Source of the DNA: a virus | DNA: 41,960 nt | Direction: 5' to 3' (one strand) | Virus record (IMG/VR): IMGVR_UViG_3300044642_000328 | Span: 1 to 41,960 of that record | Part shown: positions 2,285 through 36,797 of the stretch, one piece after another | Layout of the letters: every line of letters starts with the position of its first letter | Numbering within the stretch: position 1 is the stretch's first letter | Program-made: the position numbers and the translations under genes | The notes under the pieces: model-generated | Database searches by the model: none | What the model was told of the DNA's origin: nothing | What the model saw: only the letters and a program-made list of their open reading frames with translations

Positions 2285-2332
2285 TGAACCATAAATAATA
2301 AGTATCGTATAAAGTAAAAGAGAACATGCCAA
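2252..2332 (+). repeat. Fibre-module junction repeat, copy 1
   Basis: Bases 2252-2305 are identical to 11309-11362 (54 bp, spanning a gene end, its stop and the late-promoter box). Bases 2291-2332 are identical to 6348-6389 (42 bp, spanning the promoter box and the first codons of the next gene). These blocks lie exactly at the joins between paralogous fibre modules, as expected for duplication or homologous exchange of cassettes. Confidence 0.9.
2290..2297 (+). promoter_or_regulatory. T4-late-like promoter box, CATAAATA
   Basis: CATAAATA differs by one base from the T4 late core TATAAATA and lies 28 bases upstream of the ATG at 2326. The same box recurs in the homologous spacer at 11347. 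No sigma70 -35 element is present. Assignment rests on similarity and placement; transcript start mapping would settle it. Confidence 0.55.
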
Positions 2333-4077
2333 TAATTAACAAAGGTATTTTTGATACAGGCGACGCATTCCTTAGACAAACGGGGAATGATTGGCCTACT
2401 GCTCAAGTTATTTCAACCGCAGACGTAATTGAGTCTAGTAGTAATCTATATTTTACTAATACAAGAGCAATACAAGCATTAACAATCGGCACTGTTACTG
2501 GTAATATTTCTATTACAGGTAGTTTAATTGCCAATGGTCTTATTATACGAAATATTGCAGTTTCTGATTCTGTATTAACAGGATCTACTTCTGCAAACAA
2601 CGTTGTTGCCGATACTATAACAGCGAACATTTGGAATAGATTATATTCATCAAATGTTGTAGAATTAAATAATTTATACTATACAAATGCAAGAGTAGTA
2701 ACAGCAGTTACACCATTACTAACAACAGCAAATGTAATTGAAACCTCCGCTAATCTTTACTTTACATTACCAAGAGCAAGAACTGCGTTTACCGAAGGTT
2801 CGGGTATTGCAATTTCTGCAAACGGTGTTATTTCTACTAGAGGAAATGATACCGGTCTAGGAATGTTTAATTCCGGCATTAATCTTGAAGGTAATGCTGT
2901 TACATCTTCGATATTCTCAAATGTTAAGATTTTTAACGGTACCGAAGGTAATTCTTTCTTAGCATTCTCAATGCATGTCACAAACCTAAGTGGTAATACA
3001 TCTTATCTCACAGGTAGAACTTTAACTGATGGTAATACTGTATTATTTGCCAATCTGTTAGAAGTTCCGGTTGGCGGCAGTTTAGAAATATTCACAAAAC
3101 CGCAAGTATTTAGAATTGGTGATAGTATTCAGGTACAGAGTTTAAACCAATTCAAAGTTGCCGATAATGATTTGATATCTACATACTTGTCATATCAAGG
3201 CACAACTGACGATAATTTCAGAAGAAGCGCAATAACATTAACAGACAATACACTTGTTCCTGTATATCAAACAGTTGGTAGAATTTCTATTATTGAAAGT
3301 ATTAACCTAGTAAATCTAGGTCCAGATATTATTCCTGCCACAGTAACATTAACTGATGCTAGCGATAATATTATAGCAACACTTGCATCTAATCTGCGAA
3401 TTCCTGCATATTCATCCGTAGAACTTTGCGAATATCCAAAGACACTATCTGAAAATTGCAAAATCAAAACACAGAAATTTGGTAGTTCGTCAGGTGGATT
3501 ATCGGTATATACTTCTTCCAAATTTACATCTTCATATTCTGTAGCTCCAGATGTATCTACAATGGAAGAATCTGGTCAAATTGTATTTGATATCGTAACC
3601 ACAAACTTGATAGACGGTACGGTGTTGTGGTACGAAACGCAAGCTGTATCGGGTAACGTAACTGCTGCAGACTTTGTAACCGCAAATACAGGATACTTAA
3701 CAATACAAAATAGCGGAGCAAGATTAACATTGGTTGCAAATGCAGATTTGAATACTGCATATGAGGGTGACGAAACCTTTAAGTTAATATTAAGAAGAGC
3801 ATCTAATGTTGGCTCTATCGTAACCACAACAAACACTCTGACATTAAGAGATACATCAAATACTATTGTCTACAATAGTTTGGTTGAAACTAGCGATACA
3901 ATTGCAGAAGGTGCTAGTGCAACGTTTGTGCTTGATACTACAAACTTAGGTCCGAATGTAGTTTTATACTATACGACACTGGGTAATGTAACTAGTGCAG
4001 ATTTTGTAACAGGCAATACTGGATCATTTATTTCGACCGGTAATACATATACGCTTGTTCTTACAACCACTGGTTAA
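2326..4077 (+). CDS. Tail-fibre protein, N-terminal half of a split pair
   Basis: This 583-residue protein has the N-terminus MPIINKG...NDWPTAQV shared with the genes at 6383 and 11384, which suggests a common attachment site. Three copies of a NLY(F/Y)T motif follow (about residues 41, 107 and 144; motif known from marine T4-like phage fibres). A beta-rich region (about 185-400, with VPVGGSLEIF) leads to a Calx-beta-like domain (about 405-515). A second Calx-beta-like domain starts near 520 but is cut by TAA after NTYTLVLTTTG. The missing half of that domain is encoded in the same frame immediately downstream (4087-6348). Start chosen at ATG 2326 because the MPxINKG N-terminus aligns in all three paralogues. 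Likely late-expressed and structural. Confidence 0.85.
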   Translation: MPIINKGIFDTGDAFLRQTGNDWPTAQVISTADVIESSSNLYFTNTRAIQALTIGTVTGNISITGSLIANGLIIRNIAVSDSVLTGSTSANNVVADTITANIWNRLYSSNVVELNNLYYTNARVVTAVTPLLTTANVIETSANLYFTLPRARTAFTEGSGIAISANGVISTRGNDTGLGMFNSGINLEGNAVTSSIFSNVKIFNGTEGNSFLAFSMHVTNLSGNTSYLTGRTLTDGNTVLFANLLEVPVGGSLEIFTKPQVFRIGDSIQVQSLNQFKVADNDLISTYLSYQGTTDDNFRRSAITLTDNTLVPVYQTVGRISIIESINLVNLGPDIIPATVTLTDASDNIIATLASNLRIPAYSSVELCEYPKTLSENCKIKTQKFGSSSGGLSVYTSSKFTSSYSVAPDVSTMEESGQIVFDIVTTNLIDGTVLWYETQAVSGNVTAADFVTANTGYLTIQNSGARLTLVANADLNTAYEGDETFKLILRRASNVGSIVTTTNTLTLRDTSNTIVYNSLVETSDTIAEGASATFVLDTTNLGPNVVLYYTTLGNVTSADFVTGNTGSFISTGNTYTLVLTTTG

Positions 4078-4089
4078 GGAGTAGAAATG
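4072..4089 (+). promoter_or_regulatory. Stop-Shine-Dalgarno-restart junction within a domain
   Basis: The stop TAA (4075-4077) is part of TAAGGAG, a near-perfect Shine-Dalgarno sequence, five bases before ATG 4087. Upstream and downstream reading frames are the same. The junction therefore looks built for termination followed by re-initiation, not for a simple nonsense mutation. Confidence 0.75.
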
Positions 4090-6348
4090 CCAATTCCAGA
4101 TAACGAAACACGATTTTTTCAATTACAGATACGAACTGGATCTCTTACAGGACCAGTGCAAATAACAAGTAATGTTGTTACTGTTGTAGATAGTCAACAG
4201 GCATTTATACAAGCCACGGGTGGTTTTGTCACATTAGAAGATGGATATAAGACGCACCATTTTAATACTTCTAATACTTTCCAAGTTCTTGGATTAGGTA
4301 TTCCTGCAAATAGAAATATAGAATATTTTGTTGTTGCCGGTGGTGGTGGAGGCGGACAAGCTCCGTCTGTATATAACGAAGGCGGTGGCGGTGCGGGGGG
4401 TATTCAAAGTGGCAACATTACTCTAACATCTACAGGCAATTATGTAGCCTTAGTGGGTTCAGGTGGACAAGTTAATCAGAGAGGATCAAACTCAAATATT
4501 TCCTTGTCTGGTTCGTTATCGGTGGTGGCATTTGGTGGCGGCAGCGGCGGTTCATTTAACTTGGCTGCAAATATAGGTGGTTCTGGAGGCGGCGGACGGC
4601 AACAGGGTGGTGTTGGTGCTGCAGGTTGGTCTGGTCAAGGATTCCCGGGCGGAAACGGTCATCCAAGTTCACCACTTGGCGCAGGTGGTGGCGGCGGCGC
4701 CGGACAAGCAGGTCTTGCAGGATTGGCTAATTTTGGTGGCGGTGATATATGGAATCCTTCTGGTCAAGGTGGAAACGGTATTAGCCGATCATGGATTTTT
4801 CCATCGTACGGAGTACCAAGTTTAAGAGGGTCTTTACATTTAGTAAACAACACAGTTACTTCTGATAGATGGTTTGGTGGCGGTGGAGGTGGTGGCACCG
4901 ACGCAGGTAATCCAACCTCAGGAAGTAACCAAGCTCTAGGTTGGGGCGGCAAAGGTGGGGGTGGAGGAACAAGTTTAACTGCTGCAGAAAGCCCAAGAAT
5001 ACTTTACTATGATGTAAATGGAGCGGCAACAACAGGTGGTGGTGGTGCAGGAAAACAAGCTTCATATCCTCCAGCTGCGGGCGCGGGTGGTTCAGGATTC
5101 ATCGCAATTCGATACCCATATACTGTAGAAACATACAATGATGATGATAATATAGGTGCAGCAAAAGCAACAGTAGACAATTCGAATGTTGTTTACACAC
5201 TAACAACGGTTAACGTATCAAATGCAACTGTATTGTATTGGACGTTGTCTGGTAATGTTTCTAATACTGATGTATTGGGTGGCAATACTGGATCGTTCAC
5301 AATAATAAATGCTAACGCTACATTTACTATAAGATTAGCAAATAATATTGTTAGTGGAACAAATACTAAAGTATATACTCCTCAGTTAAGAAAGAATTCT
5401 ATAACAGGACCGGTTATATCAACAAGTAATACAATAGTAATCTATTCTTCTTCCAATAGAAATAACTTTATTAATGCAACAGGTGGTAATGTAATCACTA
5501 ATGGAGGTTTTAGAACTCACATATTTACCTCATCTAATAATTTTGCTGTATCTAGTGTAGGAGTATTGGGTGGATATGTAGAATACTTAACAGTTGCTGG
5601 CGGTGGCGGAGCTCCAAGCGGCGGTGCACCTACCGGTATACCAGGTGGCGGTGGCGGAGCAGGCGGATTATTAACCGGCATAATTACAATAACTGCACAA
5701 ACTTATGTTGCAAACGTTGGTGCAGGTGGTACTGGAGGTAGTCCGGGTTGGAATTTGCCAGGATCTAATGGTGGCAATTCAGATATCTTTGGAATACTTA
5801 CGGTTGGCGGTGGAGCAGGAGGCGTTTATACTCAAAGTGGCGGCCAACACGCAAGCGCAGGTGGTTCTGGAGGTGGAGCTTTTGGTGGAGTCAACAGCGG
5901 CGACACTAAATATGGTGGTAATTCTTATATAGGACAAGGAAATCCAGGTGGATATATAACTGGTTCTAATCCTAGCGGCGGATCGTCTACGGGTGGTGGC
6001 GGCGCTGGTGCAGCAGGATCAAATCATGGTGCCTTCGCAGACGGCCCGCGAGATGGTGGAATAGGTCGACCAATTTCTTGGGTACCGGGCTTCTATGGTA
6101 CACCTGGACCTGCTTCAGGTAGATGGTTTGCTGGTGGCGGTGGTGGCGGCACTTCTCAAAATACAGGTAACCCAGGCGTCGGTGGCGCTGGCGGTGGTGG
6201 CAGAGGTGTTATGTCTGGACCGCAAGCACAACCTGCATTTAGCGGAAACGTATTTACAGGCGGTGGCGGTGGTGGCGGTGCAGGTCCATCATATCCTGCG
6301 GGTGCTGGTGGTTCAGGTATCATTATTATCCGTTACCCATATGTCTAA
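4087..6348 (+). CDS. Glycine-rich tail-fibre/adhesin protein, C-terminal half of a split pair
   Basis: This 753-residue protein begins in the middle of a Calx-beta-like domain: MPIPDNETRFFQLQIR matches the second half of intact domains such as IPTNESRYFALQIR in the first gene. It continues with a glycine-rich domain (about 41-345), a complete Calx-beta-like domain (346-460) and a second glycine-rich domain (461-753) ending SGIIIIRYPYV. It is in the same frame as the preceding gene with only three sense codons between the TAA and its ATG. The Shine-Dalgarno TAAGGAG supports independent initiation. Probably a host-contact subunit. Whether it is also made as a readthrough fusion with the upstream protein cannot be told from DNA. 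Confidence 0.85.
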   Translation: MPIPDNETRFFQLQIRTGSLTGPVQITSNVVTVVDSQQAFIQATGGFVTLEDGYKTHHFNTSNTFQVLGLGIPANRNIEYFVVAGGGGGGQAPSVYNEGGGGAGGIQSGNITLTSTGNYVALVGSGGQVNQRGSNSNISLSGSLSVVAFGGGSGGSFNLAANIGGSGGGGRQQGGVGAAGWSGQGFPGGNGHPSSPLGAGGGGGAGQAGLAGLANFGGGDIWNPSGQGGNGISRSWIFPSYGVPSLRGSLHLVNNTVTSDRWFGGGGGGGTDAGNPTSGSNQALGWGGKGGGGGTSLTAAESPRILYYDVNGAATTGGGGAGKQASYPPAAGAGGSGFIAIRYPYTVETYNDDDNIGAAKATVDNSNVVYTLTTVNVSNATVLYWTLSGNVSNTDVLGGNTGSFTIINANATFTIRLANNIVSGTNTKVYTPQLRKNSITGPVISTSNTIVIYSSSNRNNFINATGGNVITNGGFRTHIFTSSNNFAVSSVGVLGGYVEYLTVAGGGGAPSGGAPTGIPGGGGGAGGLLTGIITITAQTYVANVGAGGTGGSPGWNLPGSNGGNSDIFGILTVGGGAGGVYTQSGGQHASAGGSGGGAFGGVNSGDTKYGGNSYIGQGNPGGYITGSNPSGGSSTGGGGAGAAGSNHGAFADGPRDGGIGRPISWVPGFYGTPGPASGRWFAGGGGGGTSQNTGNPGVGGAGGGGRGVMSGPQAQPAFSGNVFTGGGGGGGAGPSYPAGAGGSGIIIIRYPYV

Positions 6349-6354
6349 TAAATA
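6347..6354 (+). promoter_or_regulatory. T4-late-like promoter box, AATAAATA
   Basis: AATAAATA overlaps the stop of the preceding fibre gene and precedes the ATG at 6383 with the same geometry as the boxes at 2290 and 11347. The 42 bp from 6348 to 6389 are identical to 2291-2332. Confidence 0.5.
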
Positions 6355-6382
6355 ATAAGTATCGTATAAAGTAAAAGAGAAC

Positions 6383-8206
6383 ATGCCAACAATTAACAAA
6401 GGTAGATTTAGATTAACCGACGTATCTCTGCGCCAGGCAGGTAACGATTGGCCTACGGCTCAGGTTACTACAACGTCTGACGTAATTGAATCTACTTCCA
6501 ATTTATACTTTACAAATACTCGCGTAGTGTCGGCATTAATTGCTGGTCAAAATATTATTATTGAAGCCAATGGTAGAATTTCTTCTACATCGGGTGCTGG
6601 AGATCTTACAACCGCAGATGTTCGCGAAACAAGTAACTTATATTATACCAACGCAAGAGTTATTTTTGCTGCGATTCCTGCAGTAACAGAATTAACAGTA
6701 ACTACTCCAGTATTTAACTACAATATTGATCAATACTCTGGAGATAATCCAGCAATATATGTTTCTGCTGGAGAAACTATAGCATTCAATTTAAATGTTA
6801 GTGGATCCCATCCTTTTAATATTAGAGTATCGAACGGTGGTAGTAATTATGATACCGGGTTAACTCATGTTGCACAAGACGGTACAATAAGCACAGAATC
6901 CGCTGCACAAGGTAAAGTTACAGGTAAATTATTCTGGAAAATTCCATATGTATTAGCAGGAAATACATATGTTTATCAATGCTCAAATCATAGTAGTATG
7001 GTTGGTAGTATTGTTATACAAAGACCAGTAAGTACTATAACTACTGATAATGTAGCAGAAGGAAGTAACTTATACTATACAAATGTAAGAGTATTTGATG
7101 CCCTTACTATTGGTACAATTCAAGGCGATATATCGGCTAGCGGAAATCTAATTGCAAATGGTTTAATAATCAGAAACATAAATGTATCTGATAATGTTCT
7201 TGCTGGAAATATTACTGCAGGTGCTTCCGTATCAAATACCATTGTTGCTGATAGTATAACTTCTAATATATGGAACGGATTATATACAGCTAACGTAATA
7301 GAAACTAGTACTAATCTATACTTTACTAATGCAAGATCAAGATCAGCATTTACTGCAGGTCGCGGCATAATTATAATGAACGACGGTACTATAAAAAGTA
7401 CTATCGGCACAGAAACATTTAATACTGCAATAGATGGTGGAAGAGATTATAAAGTAACTTCTGCAATGGGTGGTTTGACATTTACCTCGGCCGTTGCGGG
7501 CGATAGATTCTTATTGAGATCATTGCACGTCACAAACATATCTGATAATACTGCATATATCTCATCTAATGTTTTATATGCTGGTGGTAATACTGCATAC
7601 ATGGGCAATTTAATACCTGTTCCTGTAGGTTCTGTCGTAGAGTTTATGGACAGACCACAGATTATGCAACCTGGCGATACCGTAAATCTTCAAGGGTTTG
7701 ATCAAAGTTTAGCCCCAACAAGTAACATATTGCATTCATATTTTACATTTGAATCCATTAATAATGATACGACGTATGTGGGTGTTGGACAGAATTTAGC
7801 TCAATCAAATACCAATATTCAAATTGCAGTTGCAGATCAATCTGACACCGTTTTTGAAAGTATCAAGTTTGTAAATCTGCAATCATATTCAATACCTGTT
7901 AAATTATATTTTGGTTCTGCAAACGGTGCACCTAGATCATATCTTGCATATAATATGCAAGTACCACCTAATTCTTCAATGGAAATGTTGCAGTCACCTA
8001 AATTATTAAAATATCTTGATGTAGCATATGCCAGTTACTCCAACGCAAGCGAGGGCGATTCTATAGCTGTATTCTCATCATATAGAAGAACTGCAGTAAC
8101 ATCAACATTTGGTACCACCTCATCCGCAGTAGCGCTAGGTAACATTCAAGCATCCTTCCTAACAACGATTCCTGATGGAACAACGTTATATTACACCCTG
8201 GAATAA
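6383..8206 (+). CDS. Tail-fibre protein with a cupredoxin-like domain, N-terminal half of a split pair
   Basis: This 607-residue protein has the shared MPTINKG...NDWPTAQV N-terminus and four NLY(F/Y)TN motifs. Between the second and third motif lies an inserted beta-domain (about residues 108-215) with a cupredoxin pattern: H143 in GSHPF and C200-x2-H203-x2-M206 in YQCSNHSSMVG. That is the ligand set and loop spacing of amicyanin-type blue copper proteins, although copper binding is inferred. A second stretch resembling the N-terminal module and a beta-rich region (about 340-585) follow. The protein ends inside a Calx-beta-like domain at GTTLYYTLE; the domain continues in the same frame after the TAA (8210-11341). 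The start is set by alignment with its paralogues. Confidence 0.83.
   Translation: MPTINKGRFRLTDVSLRQAGNDWPTAQVTTTSDVIESTSNLYFTNTRVVSALIAGQNIIIEANGRISSTSGAGDLTTADVRETSNLYYTNARVIFAAIPAVTELTVTTPVFNYNIDQYSGDNPAIYVSAGETIAFNLNVSGSHPFNIRVSNGGSNYDTGLTHVAQDGTISTESAAQGKVTGKLFWKIPYVLAGNTYVYQCSNHSSMVGSIVIQRPVSTITTDNVAEGSNLYYTNVRVFDALTIGTIQGDISASGNLIANGLIIRNINVSDNVLAGNITAGASVSNTIVADSITSNIWNGLYTANVIETSTNLYFTNARSRSAFTAGRGIIIMNDGTIKSTIGTETFNTAIDGGRDYKVTSAMGGLTFTSAVAGDRFLLRSLHVTNISDNTAYISSNVLYAGGNTAYMGNLIPVPVGSVVEFMDRPQIMQPGDTVNLQGFDQSLAPTSNILHSYFTFESINNDTTYVGVGQNLAQSNTNIQIAVADQSDTVFESIKFVNLQSYSIPVKLYFGSANGAPRSYLAYNMQVPPNSSMEMLQSPKLLKYLDVAYASYSNASEGDSIAVFSSYRRTAVTSTFGTTSSAVALGNIQASFLTTIPDGTTLYYTLE
6440..6474 (+). 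repeat. 35-bp block identical to 11441-11475
   Basis: This segment codes for the GNDWPTAQVTTT part of the shared fibre N-terminus and is identical at nucleotide level to 11441-11475, although flanking sequence has diverged. That suggests recent duplication or gene conversion between modules. Confidence 0.9.
7100..7140 (+). repeat. 41-bp block identical to 11534-11574
   Basis: It encodes ALTIGTIQGDISAS in two fibre paralogues (6383-8206 and 11384-12814). Exact nucleotide identity over 41 bp, with divergence outside, points to homologous exchange between the modules. Confidence 0.9.
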
Positions 8207-8209
8207 GAA

Positions 8210-11200
8210 ATGCCATTATTAGCAAGTAATTTTACATCAAATTCTCTTCAAGGAACCGTAGTAGTATCTGGTGGCTGGGCAAATATTGATTTGCAAGTCG
8301 ATGCTTTTGCCTTTGAAGGAGATAAATCTTTCACTGTTAAACTTCGTAAAGATAGTACAACAGGGCAAGTTATTGGCACATCCAATACTATTGCAATCTA
8401 TGATTATTCCGGTATTGTTAGTTTAACAGCAAATACTGCCACAGTTAACGAAGGCAATTTGGTTGGATTTACTTTAACTACAACCAACGTTGCAAATTAC
8501 ACAAACGTATTTTATTCTGTGTTACCAGTAACATCTAATGTTACATTGGGAGATTTTGTTGCTAACACCGGCGTTGTTACAATTATTAATAATGTTGGAA
8601 CGTTTGCGTTAAGAGCTAATTCTGATTTATCCTTAATGGATGAGACAGGCGAAACTTTTAAACTACAAGTTAGAACCAACTCTCCAACAGGAAATATTGT
8701 TTACGTATCATCGAATGTTGCAATCGCCGATGTATCTAAAGGCTTTAATATAATAAGCTTCGTTGAAAATAGTTCATCAGTTGCAGAAGGCGGTACATTG
8801 GCATTGACATTCAATGCCACAAATATACCGGTTGGTACATTGTTATATTATTCCACTGACGGAAACGCAACAACATCTACATTTACTGGCGGCAATACTG
8901 GTTCATTTGTAATGAATGGATTGTCGAATACAGTTACATTATTGCCAACAGCTGTTCCATATGGCATCACTCAAAACTTTACAGTACAAATTAGAAGAGA
9001 TTCATTAACAGGAACCGTATTAGCCACAAGTAATAATATTATAGCTATAGATTCTTCGATGGCATATATGACTGCAACTGGAGGTACAATAGTAGATAGC
9101 GGCGGTTATAGAACACACGCATTTACAACTTCTGGCAATTTAACTATTAGTGTTCTTGGCGCAAGTCCGACACAAAATCTTTTAGACTACTTAGTAGTTG
9201 CAGGCGGTGGGGGCGGTGGAGCTGGTGGTAGTAATTTTGGAAATCCATATCAATATTCTGGCGGAGGTGGAGGTGGCGCCGGAGGATTGTTAACTAGTAA
9301 TGTAGTAATTACCACTACAGGAAATACTGTGATTTTAGTTGGAAGTGGTGGTATAGGTAAAGGTGCGTATGGCCCATTAGCTGGAGGTTATACACCTGGT
9401 ACTAGTGGTAGTAATACTTCAGTTGCATTTGCATCGGGTCCTTCATTGATTGCTTTTGGCGGCGGCGGCGGTAGTGGAGGAGATTTTAATCTGCCCGTAG
9501 GATCAACAAATGGTACAGGTAGACCGGGTGGTTCAGGTGGCGGAACAACTGCATTCAATAATTATTCTCCAGCACCACCTGCGGGTTCTGGGACACCCGG
9601 ACAAGGATATCCTGGTGGCAAATCCTCTCCGCTCAATTTTGGTGGCGTACAAAGTACCGGTGCAGGCGGTGGTGGCGGCGGTGCTGGCGAGGCAGGTCAT
9701 TATCAACCAACGGATCCAGTATCTCCTTTGTCTACTACAACACAGGCAGGTGGTAATGGTTTAGCTATACCATGGGCACCCCCTGCATATGGCACATCTG
9801 GACCGGCTCCGGGTAGATGGTTCGCAGGCGGCGGAGGTGGCGGTGGCTGGCCTGGCGGATCAGCATATCTATTAGGTGGCGGTGCAGGTGGTGGTGGCGC
9901 TGGCGGATTCTATCCACCCGGATATCCAACAAGCGCATTTAATTCTGGTGCTGCAATTAGCGCACAAGATAGTGGCGCAAATGCAACTATTAATACAGGT
10001 GGGGGTGGCGGCGGTGTTGGTTCAGCAGGTGCAGCTACAGCTTATGGTGTTGGTGGACGTGGCGCTTCGGGCATTGTACTTATCCGTTATCCATACGTTG
10101 CACCTGCAACAATTTCAAATGTAGTAACCACATCAAACGTATTTTCTGTTGGTTCAAACATTACATTCACAATCAATGCTCTAAATGCAAATGCACAAAC
10201 ACTTTACTATTCTACAGATGGTAATGTAATAGCATCAAACTTTATTGGTGGTAACACAGGTTCATTTGTTGCAAATGCATCGGGTGGAATAGTTACATTA
10301 CAAGCTAATACAAATATACCATTGAATGAATCTAGATCGTTTAGATTACAAATTAGACAAGATTCTACTACAGGATTTATATCCGGATCTAGTGCAAATG
10401 TTACTATTGATGGTTTTGCATCACAAATATCTGCAACAGGTGGTACAATTACAACGGCAGGTGGTTATAGAACACACACATTCTTAACTTCTAATAATTT
10501 TGTTTTAAGTAAAAAATCAACAGATAACATCGAATATTTAATAGTTGCAGGTGGTGGATCGGGTGGCCCATCTTATGGCGGCGGCGGCGGAGCTGGCGGA
10601 ATGCTATATGGTAATTTAACTTATCAACAAATATCTTCTGGAACGTATTCTATTGTTGTTGGTGCTGGCGGCACGTCGGCAATAAATGGTAGTAATTCTT
10701 CTGGTTTAGGTATTTTATCTATAGGCGGTGGCGCAGGCGGCAATTATTCACCCGTCAACTCGCCCGTCGCCCAAGCCGCCGCCAGAGCCAAAAATGGAGG
10801 ATCGGGTGGAGGTGGACATTCTGGATATAACGGATATCAAGATATGCCGGGTACCCCTTCAGCGACAAACGCAGGATGGGCGGGTGGCCGAGGTGTTGTT
10901 GGTCAAGGATTTGCTGGAGGCGATAGATTAGCTCCGATTGGTAATGAGGGAGGAGGATATGAAGGCGCCGGCGGTGGCGGCGCAGGCAGCATCGGCGCCA
11001 ATGTATCTGTTAGAAGCGAAAAAGGTGGTAACGGAGGAATTGGCCTACAATGGGTAAATGGTACATACTATGCAGGCGGTGGAGGAGGATGGGGATATCA
11101 ATCTCCTACTGCAGATGCACCTACATATTCAAATACTCCATATACACAAAGTCTTGGTTTAGGTGGTTTAGGTGGTGGCGGAAACGGAACAAAATATTAT

Positions 11201-11341
11201 CCAGGTGCACCGACAATATTCTTTAATTCAACTAGCGGAACTGTAAATACTGGTGGCGGTGGCGGTGGCGCAGATAGTGGAAGCATAGCTAACACCTCCG
11301 GCGGATCAGGTATCGTTATTATCCGTTATCCCTATAGTTAA
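8210..11341 (+). CDS. Large glycine-rich tail-fibre/adhesin protein, C-terminal half of a split pair
   Basis: This 1043-residue protein starts inside a Calx-beta-like domain: MPLLASNF...EGDKSFTVKLRKDSTTG supplies the strands missing from the end of the upstream protein. Two complete Calx-beta-like domains (about 66-175 and 180-285), a glycine-rich domain (286-627), another Calx-beta-like domain (628-741) and a final glycine-rich domain (742-1043, ending GSGIVIIRYPYS) follow. It is the full-length counterpart of the partial gene at the left edge. Only GAA separates the upstream TAA from its ATG and the ribosome-binding site is weak, so translational coupling is likely. The role in host recognition is inferred from the family. 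Confidence 0.85.
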   Translation: MPLLASNFTSNSLQGTVVVSGGWANIDLQVDAFAFEGDKSFTVKLRKDSTTGQVIGTSNTIAIYDYSGIVSLTANTATVNEGNLVGFTLTTTNVANYTNVFYSVLPVTSNVTLGDFVANTGVVTIINNVGTFALRANSDLSLMDETGETFKLQVRTNSPTGNIVYVSSNVAIADVSKGFNIISFVENSSSVAEGGTLALTFNATNIPVGTLLYYSTDGNATTSTFTGGNTGSFVMNGLSNTVTLLPTAVPYGITQNFTVQIRRDSLTGTVLATSNNIIAIDSSMAYMTATGGTIVDSGGYRTHAFTTSGNLTISVLGASPTQNLLDYLVVAGGGGGGAGGSNFGNPYQYSGGGGGGAGGLLTSNVVITTTGNTVILVGSGGIGKGAYGPLAGGYTPGTSGSNTSVAFASGPSLIAFGGGGGSGGDFNLPVGSTNGTGRPGGSGGGTTAFNNYSPAPPAGSGTPGQGYPGGKSSPLNFGGVQSTGAGGGGGGAGEAGHYQPTDPVSPLSTTTQAGGNGLAIPWAPPAYGTSGPAPGRWFAGGGGGGGWPGGSAYLLGGGAGGGGAGGFYPPGYPTSAFNSGAAISAQDSGANATINTGGGGGGVGSAGAATAYGVGGRGASGIVLIRYPYVAPATISNVVTTSNVFSVGSNITFTINALNANAQTLYYSTDGNVIASNFIGGNTGSFVANASGGIVTLQANTNIPLNESRSFRLQIRQDSTTGFISGSSANVTIDGFASQISATGGTITTAGGYRTHTFLTSNNFVLSKKSTDNIEYLIVAGGGSGGPSYGGGGGAGGMLYGNLTYQQISSGTYSIVVGAGGTSAINGSNSSGLGILSIGGGAGGNYSPVNSPVAQAAARAKNGGSGGGGHSGYNGYQDMPGTPSATNAGWAGGRGVVGQGFAGGDRLAPIGNEGGGYEGAGGGGAGSIGANVSVRSEKGGNGGIGLQWVNGTYYAGGGGGWGYQSPTADAPTYSNTPYTQSLGLGGLGGGGNGTKYYPGAPTIFFNSTSGTVNTGGGGGGADSGSIANTSGGSGIVIIRYPYS

Positions 11342-11383: not shown

Positions 11384-12814
11384 ATGCCAATTATAAACAA
11401 AGGTATATTATCCTCTAGGGATGCCTATTTAAAGCAATTAGGTAACGATTGGCCTACGGCTCAGGTTACTACAACATCTGATGTATTAGAGGTATCTTCT
11501 AACTTATACTTCACTAACACCAGAGCAATTAATGCCCTTACTATTGGTACAATTCAAGGCGATATATCGGCTAGTGGAAATCTAGTTGCAAATGGTTTAA
11601 TAATTAGAAATATTATTGTTACGGATTCTGTTCTTTTAGGTTCAGGTGGTATATCCGGAAACATATACACCGCTAACGTAATTGAGACAAGTGGTAATTT
11701 ATATTACACCAATGCAAGAGTAGTTACCACTGTTACTCCTCTATTGACTACGGGCAATGTAATTGAAACATCTGCTAATTTATATTTTACTACAGCAAGA
11801 GCAAGAGCTGCTTTTACCGCTGGGCAAAATATTACAATTGAAAACGGTACTATTTCGGCGTTGACACAATCGGTAGTTGTTAACGAAAGCGATATAATAA
11901 CTGTATTAGCAAATACCACTAGTTATACATTATCTAGAAACATATCCGATCCAAAATCTATTCTTGTAATTAATGAAGGATTGATACAAATACCTACAGT
12001 AGATTATACTGTATCCGGTATAACATTAACAACCACAACTCAATATCCAGTTGGATCAAATATTGAAGTTAGATATTTTGGCGTAGATTCGACAACATCG
12101 GGTGCATACACTTCCACATTATCTATATCATTGAATTCTTTTATCGGTGACGGTTCGAATGTAAATTATCAATTAAATAGCAATCCATCTTCTACTGCAT
12201 ATACCATAATAAATATAGATGGTGTTGAACAATTAACTACTGCATATTCTTTGAATGGTAGTTTATTGACATTCTCAGAGCCTCCTAGCAACGGAGCAAA
12301 TATAGATGTCAGAGTGTTCGGCGGAATTGTTGGACAACCATACAATACGAGAAATTACGTAGGCGACGGTGTTACTGTAAACTGGCCAATAAGCACAGGA
12401 TTTACAGAAAATAATATTTTAGTATTTGAAAACGGTGTTGCTCAAGTTCCATCGATAGATTATACAGTAAGTCCAACATCAAATGTAGTACTAACTAATG
12501 CGACTGCGGCCAATGTAAATATTCAAATTAGAGAACTTGGACAAACCGCAGCTAACCTTGTTAATTCTATACAAGGCATGGACGTTATTTTAGGAAACAT
12601 AACTCCTAAAATAACAGGTGTTTATAATATAGGATCTGCAAATTTAGCATACAACAAGTTATATCTAACAGGCTCAAATTCATTGGTACTTGGTAATACT
12701 ATAGTTAGTATATCGGGTAGCACATTAACACTAAGTACTGCAGGTACAACTACGGTAGTAGGAGCTTCTTCTGGTACAGACAATATTAGTCCATTCTTGT
12801 TGATGGGCGCTTAA
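11384..12814 (+). CDS. Tail-fibre protein, third MPxINKG paralogue
   Basis: This 476-residue protein has the shared N-terminus MPIINKG...NDWPTAQV and three NLY(F/Y)T motifs (about residues 41, 103 and 140). It lacks Calx-beta and glycine-rich domains. The middle (about 165-400) has three beta-repeat segments with alternating hydrophobic strands, recognisable from PxxDYTVS, NSFIGDGSNVNY and RNYVGDGVTVNW, a pattern seen in phage fibre shafts. The end (YNIGSANLAYNKLYL) is typical of phage fibre C-terminal modules. It may be a shorter fibre or connector attaching at the same site as the two split pairs. The next gene follows after eight bases. Confidence 0.8.
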   Translation: MPIINKGILSSRDAYLKQLGNDWPTAQVTTTSDVLEVSSNLYFTNTRAINALTIGTIQGDISASGNLVANGLIIRNIIVTDSVLLGSGGISGNIYTANVIETSGNLYYTNARVVTTVTPLLTTGNVIETSANLYFTTARARAAFTAGQNITIENGTISALTQSVVVNESDIITVLANTTSYTLSRNISDPKSILVINEGLIQIPTVDYTVSGITLTTTTQYPVGSNIEVRYFGVDSTTSGAYTSTLSISLNSFIGDGSNVNYQLNSNPSSTAYTIINIDGVEQLTTAYSLNGSLLTFSEPPSNGANIDVRVFGGIVGQPYNTRNYVGDGVTVNWPISTGFTENNILVFENGVAQVPSIDYTVSPTSNVVLTNATAANVNIQIRELGQTAANLVNSIQGMDVILGNITPKITGVYNIGSANLAYNKLYLTGSNSLVLGNTIVSISGSTLTLSTAGTTTVVGASSGTDNISPFLLMGA

Positions 12815-12822
12815 GGAAAAAT

Positions 12823-13152
12823 ATGGCGATAAAATACAAAGTTCTAGGTCAATCTTTACCTGTTTCAAATACTTTTACTACTTTATATACTGTACCTGCA
12901 GGAAATAGTGCGGTTGTTTCTACATTGAATGTATGCAATCAATCTACATCTAATGTTACATTTAGGATTGCCGTTAGACCTGCAAATGAAACATTGGTCG
13001 GTAAACACTATGTTGCCTTTGATGTTCCATTGCCTGCACAAGATGCTATTGCTCTTACTATGGGTATGTCATTGGATGCAACAGATGTTGTTACAGTATT
13101 CTCATGGCAAGGTAATGTTTCATTTAATCTATTTGGAACTGAGATTTATTAA
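12823..13152 (+). CDS. Small phage structural protein, beta-rich
   Basis: This is a 109-residue protein with no signal peptide, rich in beta-branched residues (TLYTVPAGNSAVVSTLNVCNQ; then FRIAVRP). Similar small proteins with the pattern 'TLYTVP..NSAVVSTL.VCN' sit among tail genes of marine phages, where they are presumed virion components. Its stop overlaps the next ATG by one base (TAATG), so the two are translationally coupled. Specific function is not known. Confidence 0.75.
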   Translation: MAIKYKVLGQSLPVSNTFTTLYTVPAGNSAVVSTLNVCNQSTSNVTFRIAVRPANETLVGKHYVAFDVPLPAQDAIALTMGMSLDATDVVTVFSWQGNVSFNLFGTEIY

Positions 13153-14012
13153 TGTCAACTTCTCGTTATAGTTTAAGGACGACCTCATCTAAAAAGATGA
13201 ATTCAGGAAACATTCCTTATATACTTTCAGCATTTTTACCTCCGGTAGTTACTTATTTGGTAGTAGCGGGTGGCGGCGGCGGATCAAATTATGGTGCAGG
13301 TGGCGGTGGGGGGTTTTTAACTTCAGATATTCCTGTTATTGTAGGATCTAACATTATAATAACAGTAGGTGCTGGAGGCTCAGGTGGAACTACCGGTACT
13401 ATAGGGGCAAATAGTTCTATTAGTGGTTCTGGATTTACTACCGTCACATCTATCGGTGGAGGTCGTGGCGGTGTAGGAAATGCTGGCGCAGGAACTTCGG
13501 GTGGATCTGGCGGCGGTGGCGGGTTTAATGCCGGCGCGGGCGGTGCGAACACTGCTGGGCAAGGTTATATTGGTGGCGCAGGTTTTGCTGCCTCTGGTCC
13601 GTTTATGGGTGGTGGTGGTGGTGGTGCCGGCGCTGTGGGCGGAAACGGTATTTCTACAAAAGGCGGAAATGGCGGCCAAGGCGCCGTATTTATATCAGCA
13701 ACTTACGGTGGTGGCGGAGGCGGAGGCGGTTTTGACACAGTATTAGCTGCTTCTGGCGGAGCAGGCGGTGGCGGTAACGGCGGCACCTCTGGTACAGGTA
13801 CAGGTGCAGGAACTGTAAATACTGGCGGTGGCGGGGGCGGCGCAGGTAACTCGCCTTCCGCAGGTGGCTCAGGCGGTTCGGGTGTTGTAATTATTGCATA
13901 TCCTTCATCTTTTAATCCAGCAAACAGTACAACAGGATCAAATGTATTATATGTCAATGGTGGTGGATTCCAAACATATACATTCTATAGCTCTGGTTCA
14001 ATAACATTCTAA
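13152..14012 (+). CDS. Glycine-rich tail protein
   Basis: This 286-residue protein has a short basic N-terminal segment followed by a single glycine-rich domain from residue 35 (TYLVVAGGGGG) to about 257 (GSGVVIIAYPSS) and a beta-tail ending FYSSGSITF. It belongs to the same glycine-rich family as the large fibre proteins but without Calx-beta domains. It overlaps the previous gene by one base. The same FxSSG(S/T)ITF ending occurs at 36797. Probably a small virion adhesin or decoration; this is inferred. Confidence 0.8.
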   Translation: MSTSRYSLRTTSSKKMNSGNIPYILSAFLPPVVTYLVVAGGGGGSNYGAGGGGGFLTSDIPVIVGSNIIITVGAGGSGGTTGTIGANSSISGSGFTTVTSIGGGRGGVGNAGAGTSGGSGGGGGFNAGAGGANTAGQGYIGGAGFAASGPFMGGGGGGAGAVGGNGISTKGGNGGQGAVFISATYGGGGGGGGFDTVLAASGGAGGGGNGGTSGTGTGAGTVNTGGGGGGAGNSPSAGGSGGSGVVIIAYPSSFNPANSTTGSNVLYVNGGGFQTYTFYSSGSITF

Positions 14013-29730: not shown

Positions 29731-30372
29731 ATGGCACACTTAGTAGCAAATTTACCACCAATTCACGGTTGGATAAGAAGAGAATTCTTATATGACTTTG
29801 AAAAAGGTCACGGCGAATATGAACCTTGTATATGGATAACCTTAAAAAGTATCAGGGGCCAAGCATTTCGTATTGAGGCATATTTACCTAATTATGGTGC
29901 TTTGTATGATAAATTACCTTTACATGCTTTTGTATCTAGAACAGAAAATTTAGACGAAAGTAAATTTTTAGATTTAGACGCGCTTCAAATTTGGGATTGC
30001 TTTAGTTACGATTTTACAGTAATCCAAAAGTCATTTATGAGAAATTTAAGTTGTAAGTTCTATGCTAAGGATAAAAATTTTTACAGCGGAGACTATTTAT
30101 TTACTGTAGATCATTCCTCTCCTGATATGAATATCTTAGATACAAGTTATGCTGAATGGCCTGAAGATCACAAAAGTTTTAACTTTATACAATTGGACAA
30201 CGGTCAATATGCAGCACAGCCAAACAATCGTTGTCTATTTTTAGACGCAGCTAGCAATCCAAAAGAATTAAAATTCCCAGATTTTAGAGTATGCACAAAG
30301 AAATATGTTGTAGAAACAAACCCAAAATGGTTTTTGGGAGACAGTAACACAGTAATGTACGAAAAGGAATAA
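29731..30372 (+). CDS. Conserved hypothetical protein of phage RNR clusters
   Basis: This is a 213-residue protein. N-terminus LPPIHGWIRREFLYDFEKGHGEY recurs in marine T4-like phages, usually close to nrd and Fe-S carrier genes. It shows scattered conserved W, F and D residues (LQIWDCFSYDF, TSYAEWPEDH) but no recognised catalytic motif. No signal peptide. Function unknown; the steady neighbourhood suggests a link to nucleotide metabolism, but this is only contextual. Confidence 0.75.
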   Translation: MAHLVANLPPIHGWIRREFLYDFEKGHGEYEPCIWITLKSIRGQAFRIEAYLPNYGALYDKLPLHAFVSRTENLDESKFLDLDALQIWDCFSYDFTVIQKSFMRNLSCKFYAKDKNFYSGDYLFTVDHSSPDMNILDTSYAEWPEDHKSFNFIQLDNGQYAAQPNNRCLFLDAASNPKELKFPDFRVCTKKYVVETNPKWFLGDSNTVMYEKE

Positions 30373-35849: not shown

Positions 35850-36797
35850 ATGGTAAAACGCTACGCAGGTGGATTGATATCGAGCACTAAAGTTTCTACC
35901 GGGGAATTTTCTGCCAGTGGGGTTTTCAATACATCTGATGCCGCTCAAGGTTTATCTGCAGGTCTATGGCCGGTACCTAGAAATCGTGCAACTGTTATAG
36001 ATTATATTGTTGTTGCAGGTGGCGCTGGTGGTGGTGGATATTATAACGCAGGCGGCGGCGGCGCAGGAGGAGTTCTATTCGCAAATAATGTTTCTGTAGG
36101 TCAGGTTACATTCACACTTACAATAGGCGCTGGAGGCGCAGCTGGAACCGCTGACACAAAGGGAGGTACTGGGGTAAACACTTCTATAGCTGCTCCAGGA
36201 TTTTCTACGGTCACCGCAAGTGGAGGTGGTGGCGGAGGTGGTGGCTCCGGCAGCCCGGGCGGCAACCCTGGAGGATCAGGTGGAGGTAATAGTGGTTATA
36301 CTACAGCTGCTACATATGGCAACGGCACGCCGGGGCAAGGAAACAGAGGTGGAACGGGTGGTAGCTACGGTGGCGGTGGCGGGGGTGGAGCCGTACAAGT
36401 AGGCTTTAATGGCACTTCAACTGTAGGTGGCCGAGGTGGTAACGGTATTGTTTGGTTTAATAGTACCTATTACGGAGGCGGTGGCGGTGGCGCAGCATAT
36501 GACGGTTCTGCTCCTGCGGAACCTATTGCACCAGGAGGTTTAGGTGGCGGTGGTGCTGGTTCTACTTTTGGTATAGCTGGCGCTCCTGGAGATGCAAGTA
36601 CCGGAGGTGGTGGCGGTGGCGCTAATGGATATTCGCCCGTTAGTCAATTTGCTGGTAGTGGAGGAAGTGGTGTAGTAGTATTAAGATATCCTGCAGTATT
36701 TACTCGTGCGTTATCTACAACTGGCGCAAACACTTATACAGTATCTGAAGGATATCGCTATTATACGTTCACATCATCCGGTACAATAACATTCTAA
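35850..36797 (+). CDS. Glycine-rich tail protein
   Basis: This 315-residue protein has the N-terminus MVKRYAGGLISSTKV with a SASGVFNTSDAAQ helix, as seen in many marine phage glycine-rich proteins. A glycine-rich domain (about 50-275; DYIVVAGGAGGGG to GSGVVVLRYPAVF) follows and the end is FTSSGTITF. It is the same family as 13152-14012 and lies in the second structural cluster. Likely adhesin or decoration. Confidence 0.8.
   Translation: MVKRYAGGLISSTKVSTGEFSASGVFNTSDAAQGLSAGLWPVPRNRATVIDYIVVAGGAGGGGYYNAGGGGAGGVLFANNVSVGQVTFTLTIGAGGAAGTADTKGGTGVNTSIAAPGFSTVTASGGGGGGGGSGSPGGNPGGSGGGNSGYTTAATYGNGTPGQGNRGGTGGSYGGGGGGGAVQVGFNGTSTVGGRGGNGIVWFNSTYYGGGGGGAAYDGSAPAEPIAPGGLGGGGAGSTFGIAGAPGDASTGGGGGGANGYSPVSQFAGSGGSGVVVLRYPAVFTRALSTTGANTYTVSEGYRYYTFTSSGTITF

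Follow-up and report, generated by a model that had tools for sequence, protein, structure and literature searches.

Introduction

In chaperone-usher pili, donor-strand complementation completes the fold of a subunit through its neighbour, a single N-terminal extension strand filling the groove of the next subunit, and the chain repeats. In T2/S16-type phages, the adhesin gp38 sits on the tip of the gp37 trimer via its own N-terminus, according to PMC12892980 (citing Dunne et al. 2018), and a foreign gp38 failed with T2 gp37 until the gp38 N-terminus was exchanged (PMC12892980). Among the genes-in-pieces of T4-like phages, PMC2988022 names Aeh1 nrdA, T4 topoisomerase gene 60 and gene 43A/43B; joint function of the pieces has been demonstrated for nrdA and gene 43, and unsplit homologues occur in relatives. 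The split mitochondrial cox2 of Campsomeris is likewise described as a gene fission with complementary products, which are believed to associate as a heterodimer (PMC5374615). Here we describe pairs of adjacent genes, A and B, in the IMG/VR virus record IMGVR_UViG_3300044642_000328 (41,960 bases, hereafter the window; all material analyzed is metagenomic), in which one Calx-beta-like beta-sandwich domain is encoded partly at the end of A and partly at the start of B. The A proteins would constitute a fibre stalk with a knob and the B proteins a glycine-rich head, as judged from their sequences, and the phages of this group are T4-like and probably marine.

Of these systems, gp38 could be the nearest functional parallel by analogy, being likewise a separate glycine-rich adhesin on a fibre tip, held by its N-terminus and specifically matched to the stalk. 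It differs in that, according to PMC12892980, gp38 binds gp37 as a separate protein, while the A/B joint would be one sandwich domain shared between two chains. The nearest genetic parallel is represented by the genes-in-pieces, as in both cases a contiguous gene corresponds to two complementary polypeptides and an unsplit homologue is present in relatives. However, the cases named from PMC2988022 are enzymes, whose splits are accompanied by a homing endonuclease or an intercistronic insert, whereas A/B is a structural fibre protein with a gap of 0-9 nt, no mobile element or insert, and breaks repeated at different loops. The cox2 fission was a single event in an organelle enzyme, with the pieces now a 3-kb cluster apart (PMC5374615). 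Calx-beta domains of integrin beta4, CALX (CBD1) and NCX1 (PDB 3fq4, 3rb7, 3us9) share the fold of the rejoined domain, but they are single-chain. Donor-strand complementation resembles A/B in that an immunoglobulin (Ig)-like fold is completed by another chain. There, however, one strand is donated, while in A/B the fold is cut at a loop, B starts inside the domain with several strands, A gives three or more, and growth would stop after one partner; split-protein complementation therefore suits A/B better. In the part of the literature searched, no paper unites Calx-beta, phage and tail fiber, and none deals with donor strand complementation in a phage tail fiber. Neither PMC12892980 nor PMC2988022 describes, in the parts available, a domain divided between two fibre genes.

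Results

Gene A1 (2326-4077, plus strand as all features given here; 583 residues) encodes the stalk, the knob, an intact sandwich domain d1 (3529-3864, 91.1 bits) and the first part of a second sandwich, d2. The frame continues across the stop codon TAA at 4075-4077 into gene B1 (4087-6348, 753 residues, phrog_2295), which holds the rest of d2, another sandwich domain and glycine-rich adhesin-like modules. A first-pass annotation made from the sequence had proposed that the flanks of this stop form one Calx-beta-like domain, and the peptides it named (LYYTTLGNVTSADF and GNTGSF before the stop, NETRFFQLQIRTGSLTG after it) lie where it had placed them. The proposal of a single domain was borne out with a seed hidden Markov model (HMM) built from 7 uninterrupted domain copies only. 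The A half (3868-4074; strands A to E, according to the joined-domain model) matches HMM positions 2-67 with 60.2 bits, and the B half (4087-4188, strands F and G) matches the non-overlapping positions 71-104 with 37.0 bits. Joined in their genomic order, they score 105.6 bits over positions 2-104, while the reversed order, B then A, brings no gain (58.7 bits). The break of pair 1 thus falls between strands E and F of an Ig/Calx-beta-like sandwich.

An unbroken orthologue of A1/B1 is present in a related contig, L002, where positions 3469-5928 encode one chain of 819 residues comprising the knob, d1, d2 and the glycine-rich head. The same gene is found at 1784-4243 of L001, a contig near-identical to L002, so that the unsplit homologues which the first-pass annotation had suggested looking for do exist in relatives. 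At the break, L002 reads LTTTST-IPDNETRYF against LTTTG*GVEMPIPDNETRFF in the window; in the alignment, the window is longer by five codons, TAA GGA GTA GAA ATG (4075-4089), which comprise the stop, a Shine-Dalgarno motif (GGAG, 4078-4081) and the start. A1 is 59% identical to the unsplit L001/L002 orthologue, and the joined pair 1 domain shares 63% identity with the L002 copy and 70% with an unbroken domain of L003.

The designation of this locus as a first pair was also apt, as a second one follows. Gene A2 (6383-8206; phrog_677, baseplate wedge tail fiber connector, 6.9e-24) is another stalk gene with a half domain at its end, and B2 (8210-11341; phrog_2295 and PF21722) carries the rest of that domain, more sandwich domains and glycine-rich modules. 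Here the break lies in the C-D loop, at an in-frame junction TAA GAA ATG (8204-8212; TAA 8204-8206, ATG 8210). The A half (8126-8203, strands A-C, ending in LYYTLE) matches HMM positions 3-36 with 10.7 bits alone, the complementary B half (8210-8401, strands D-G) matches positions 43-103 with 42.9 bits, and the joined sequence reaches 55.3 bits.

Including this one, breaks within this kind of domain were found at 13 more A/B junctions of the window and of eight related IMG/VR contigs, each of them in the C-D loop: window pair 2, L002, L003, L004 (three), L013, L014 (two), L224 (two), L226 and L255. These include near-duplicates, as L013 and L014 hardly differ at the junction they share. The A proteins typically end in GTxLYYTIE and the B proteins typically start with M[AP]xxxxxNFxSNSLxG. 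At all 14 C-D and E-F junctions scored with the seed HMM, the two halves match complementary, non-overlapping positions, with a joined score approximately equal to the sum of the halves. Among 142 adjacent open reading frame (ORF) pairs from 13 loci, a boundary-spanning domain was found in 14, every one of them an A/B fibre pair. A DNA pattern scan for YY[TS]xE-stop-ATG returned mostly chance matches and contigs already known, a search with alignment A8 gave no new contig, and a search of genome contigs gave one irrelevant match.

The tree of the knob region shows two clades. One contains 10 genes, all broken at C-D and sharing the A end YY[TS][IL]E. The other (support 100/100) unites the unbroken L002 gene, window A1 (E-F, in d2), L003_A2 (C-D, in d1) and L003_A1. 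Since orthologues differ in state, some being intact and others cut at C-D or at E-F, breaks or losses must have happened more than once, independent break events being few. A further break in L003_A1, in the A-B loop of d2 (L003 7677/7678), is plausible by eye, but its A side gives no HMM score; it was regarded as only probable and left uncounted. Separately, at L299:5784-5785 (IMGVR_UViG_3300016471_000236, the L003 contig), TAA is directly followed by ATG within the first hairpin of a glycine-rich head, reading '...ATGGTITEIVI*' / 'MARYKVHTFLTSNSF...', with a joined score of 52.7 bits (E 1.7e-15). This fission lies outside the Calx-beta-like domain.

Both halves have been retained. In the C-D clade, every A protein keeps a tail of the same length and with the same end. 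Among diverged pairs, synonymous sites are near saturation (proportion of differing sites, pS, about 0.44-0.83), while the corresponding nonsynonymous value (pN) of the A half is about 0.23-0.46, like that of the knob. Distances of A halves and B halves are correlated (r 0.86), as are those of knobs and B halves (r 0.96), both values being inflated by near-identical pairs.

AlphaFold2 was given each joined domain as a single chain, with TAA read as Gln and guided by the unbroken homologues. For pair 1 it predicted a sandwich (predicted local distance difference test, pLDDT, 92.7; predicted template modelling score, pTM, 0.85), in which the loop connecting strands 64-71 and 86-93 contains the junction. 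For pair 2 (pLDDT 82.1, pTM 0.74), the predicted junction lies at the end of strand 38-45. The top PDB matches of the joined pair 2 model are Calx-beta domains (CALX, NCX1, integrin beta4; E 1.2e-4 and up, TM about 0.5), and Calx-beta domains are among the top six matches of the pair 1 model, mixed with other Ig-like folds. At the Pfam cut-off, PF03160 Calx-beta matches neither the window proteins nor the joined pair 1 domain. The term Calx-beta-like therefore holds for the fold, although not for a Pfam sequence match of the window copies. In L019, a relative with the same repeats, PF03160 scores 29 against a cut-off of 27; there, L019:7420-10425 holds a run of closely similar sandwich repeats in one uninterrupted gene, which reach this cut-off.

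In regard to translation, GGAG ends 5 nt upstream of ATG 4087, in accordance with the strong ribosome-binding site reported by the first-pass annotation. Such a strong motif is peculiar to pair 1, all other junctions having a weak one or none. Stop and start are separated by 1-9 nt at the junctions within Calx-beta-like domains (0-9 nt counting all junctions), and the stop is TAA or TAG. Of 13 junctions checked for phase, only the two in the window are in frame, both open for more than 400 codons beyond the stop; nine are at +1 and two at +2, and at each of these 11 the continued frame is closed by a further stop after 0-12 codons. The pair 1 junction shows no conspicuous RNA structure (z 0.39).

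The left third of the window is occupied by fibre genes, while the remainder holds baseplate, ribonucleotide reductase, primase and other T4-like phage genes. PF21722 (Gly_rich_2) is found in B1 (111.6 bits) and B2 (56.9 bits), as well as in the B proteins of L226 and L224. A third A-type gene (11384-12814) has neither a half-domain at its end nor a B partner. The motif ATAAATAATAAGTAT, which resembles T4-type late promoters (TATAAATA), occurs in exact copies only at 2291, 6348 and 11348 of the window, where a scan allowing up to 2 mismatches would be expected to give 0.72 matches. Each copy precedes one A-type gene, as at 2291-2305, 20 nt before A1, and at 6348-6362 before A2, and none precedes a B gene; A and B are thus probably cotranscribed. 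An apparent break at the start of the window gene 200-2284 was dismissed, as the frame is simply open to the left edge. Two more glycine-rich proteins without stalk parts (13152-14012 and 35850-36797; phrog_2295) are present, the former directly following a 109-residue gene (12823-13152). Elsewhere, a ferredoxin-family gene (29731-30372; phrog_3704) lies between the genes for the large and small subunits of ribonucleotide reductase.

Discussion

One beta-sandwich is divided between two polypeptides, relatives have the gene unsplit, and the split has been kept, so these data are best read as a joint between fibre segments. We consider it fairly likely that A and B are cistrons coupled in translation and that their products fold together as one split domain, forming a non-covalent joint between stalk and adhesin head. 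According to such a model, stalk and head were formerly one chain and became separated by short stop-start junctions in loops of the linking beta-sandwich domain. The two genes, probably cotranscribed, would yield B by termination-reinitiation, aided in pair 1 by the strong Shine-Dalgarno motif, and the A tail and B head would then co-fold into one domain that keeps the head on the stalk. This would explain why the breaks lie inside domains, since a break between domains would free the head, while a break within one keeps the chains attached.

Several observations weigh against this interpretation. Taken alone, the A half of a C-D break reaches no more than 5-14 bits against the seed HMM (L003 being higher, at 38), and the d1-d2 stretch is mostly filled by domain, so a random break inside a domain is not improbable by itself. 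The AlphaFold2 models place the junctions in loops of a compatible fold, which is different from binding of two chains. The E-F break was found in the window contig alone. Finally, a tblastn search in isolate phages gave knob or glycine-rich matches only and no phage with such an A/B pair; where an isolate relative has a knob match, its gene stops behind the knob and lacks a half-domain.

The short A half (about 33 residues) and its weak score at C-D breaks could also indicate that A and B are independent, with the A tail an inert remnant and B folding and attaching alone through its later domains, as most B proteins have intact sandwich domains after the split one. We hold this to be unlikely, as length, end motif and constraint of the A half are preserved in 10 diverged genes, the B head lacks strands A-C, and the distances of A and B correlate (with the inflation mentioned above). 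The in-frame window junctions, and the low-rate readthrough possible at TAA codons, are compatible with recoding, that is, stop readthrough or frameshifting that would produce a full-length A-B fusion besides a minority of free A. As a conserved mechanism, the readthrough fusion that the first-pass annotation had offered as its alternative fails, because most homologous junctions are out of frame and meet a stop soon after; readthrough, frameshifting and an alternative code were all rejected as the common mechanism, readthrough being conceivable only at the two in-frame window junctions. Moreover, both TAA and TAG are used, and pair 1 has a proper ribosome-binding site with ATG and an unstructured junction, so that recoding seems quite improbable. 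Conservation extends to the stop, to a start near it and to both halves, but not to the frame, which points to termination-reinitiation and two chains.

As a half-domain at the end of a gene could also engage a non-cognate partner, and several A/B pairs stand in a row in the window, L004 and L224, it is conceivable that fibre subunits are chained end to end by donor-strand exchange or domain swapping, as in chaperone-usher pili. However, none of the B proteins has an A-type half at its end, which keeps the chain from continuing beyond one B per A, and the cut yields multi-strand pieces instead of one donor strand; we give such polymerisation very little credence. Accordingly, the earlier suggestion of one beta-sandwich completed across subunits stands insofar as the domain is encoded in two polypeptides, while its pilus analogy is inexact, no single strand filling a groove. 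Hardly any weight can be given to a sequencing or assembly error, or to decay of a once intact gene. The E-F break does occur in one contig only and has an intact orthologue, but a 15-nt in-frame insertion of stop, Shine-Dalgarno motif and start is untypical of error, both reading frames remain open, and similar breaks recur, under retained constraint, in several gene copies and in a further eight contigs.

Returning to the co-folded joint, the split had been called designed, and it is indeed maintained; there is, however, no single special site, as orthologous genes are broken at different loops. Fission that is tolerated, or used, only inside a domain suits the data better than one design. 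The split may be adaptive (through assembly, dosage or head exchange), or it may be a fission that is merely tolerated and has no way back. Since several A/B pairs within a single genome share the C-D loop as the site of the cut, pairing of heads and stalks across gene pairs is conceivable, and the split sandwich might then act as a reusable quick-connect joint, giving mixed adhesins per virion; separate chains might also allow heads to be exchanged by recombination. We regard this as doubtful, and the correlated divergence of A and B partners argues for mostly cognate pairing.

A gene fission would normally be expected to fall at a domain border, so that each piece can fold alone. In contrast, the related fibre genes discussed here are broken inside a domain, at different loops and on more than one occasion, with both halves kept. 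As each half scores weakly, domains of this kind will escape both gene callers and domain searches. Orthologues without a break, and those with breaks at other places, offer a ready comparison of covalent and non-covalent versions of the same connection. If the chains do co-fold, they would represent a natural and recurrent case of split-protein complementation serving as a mechanical joint in the virion.

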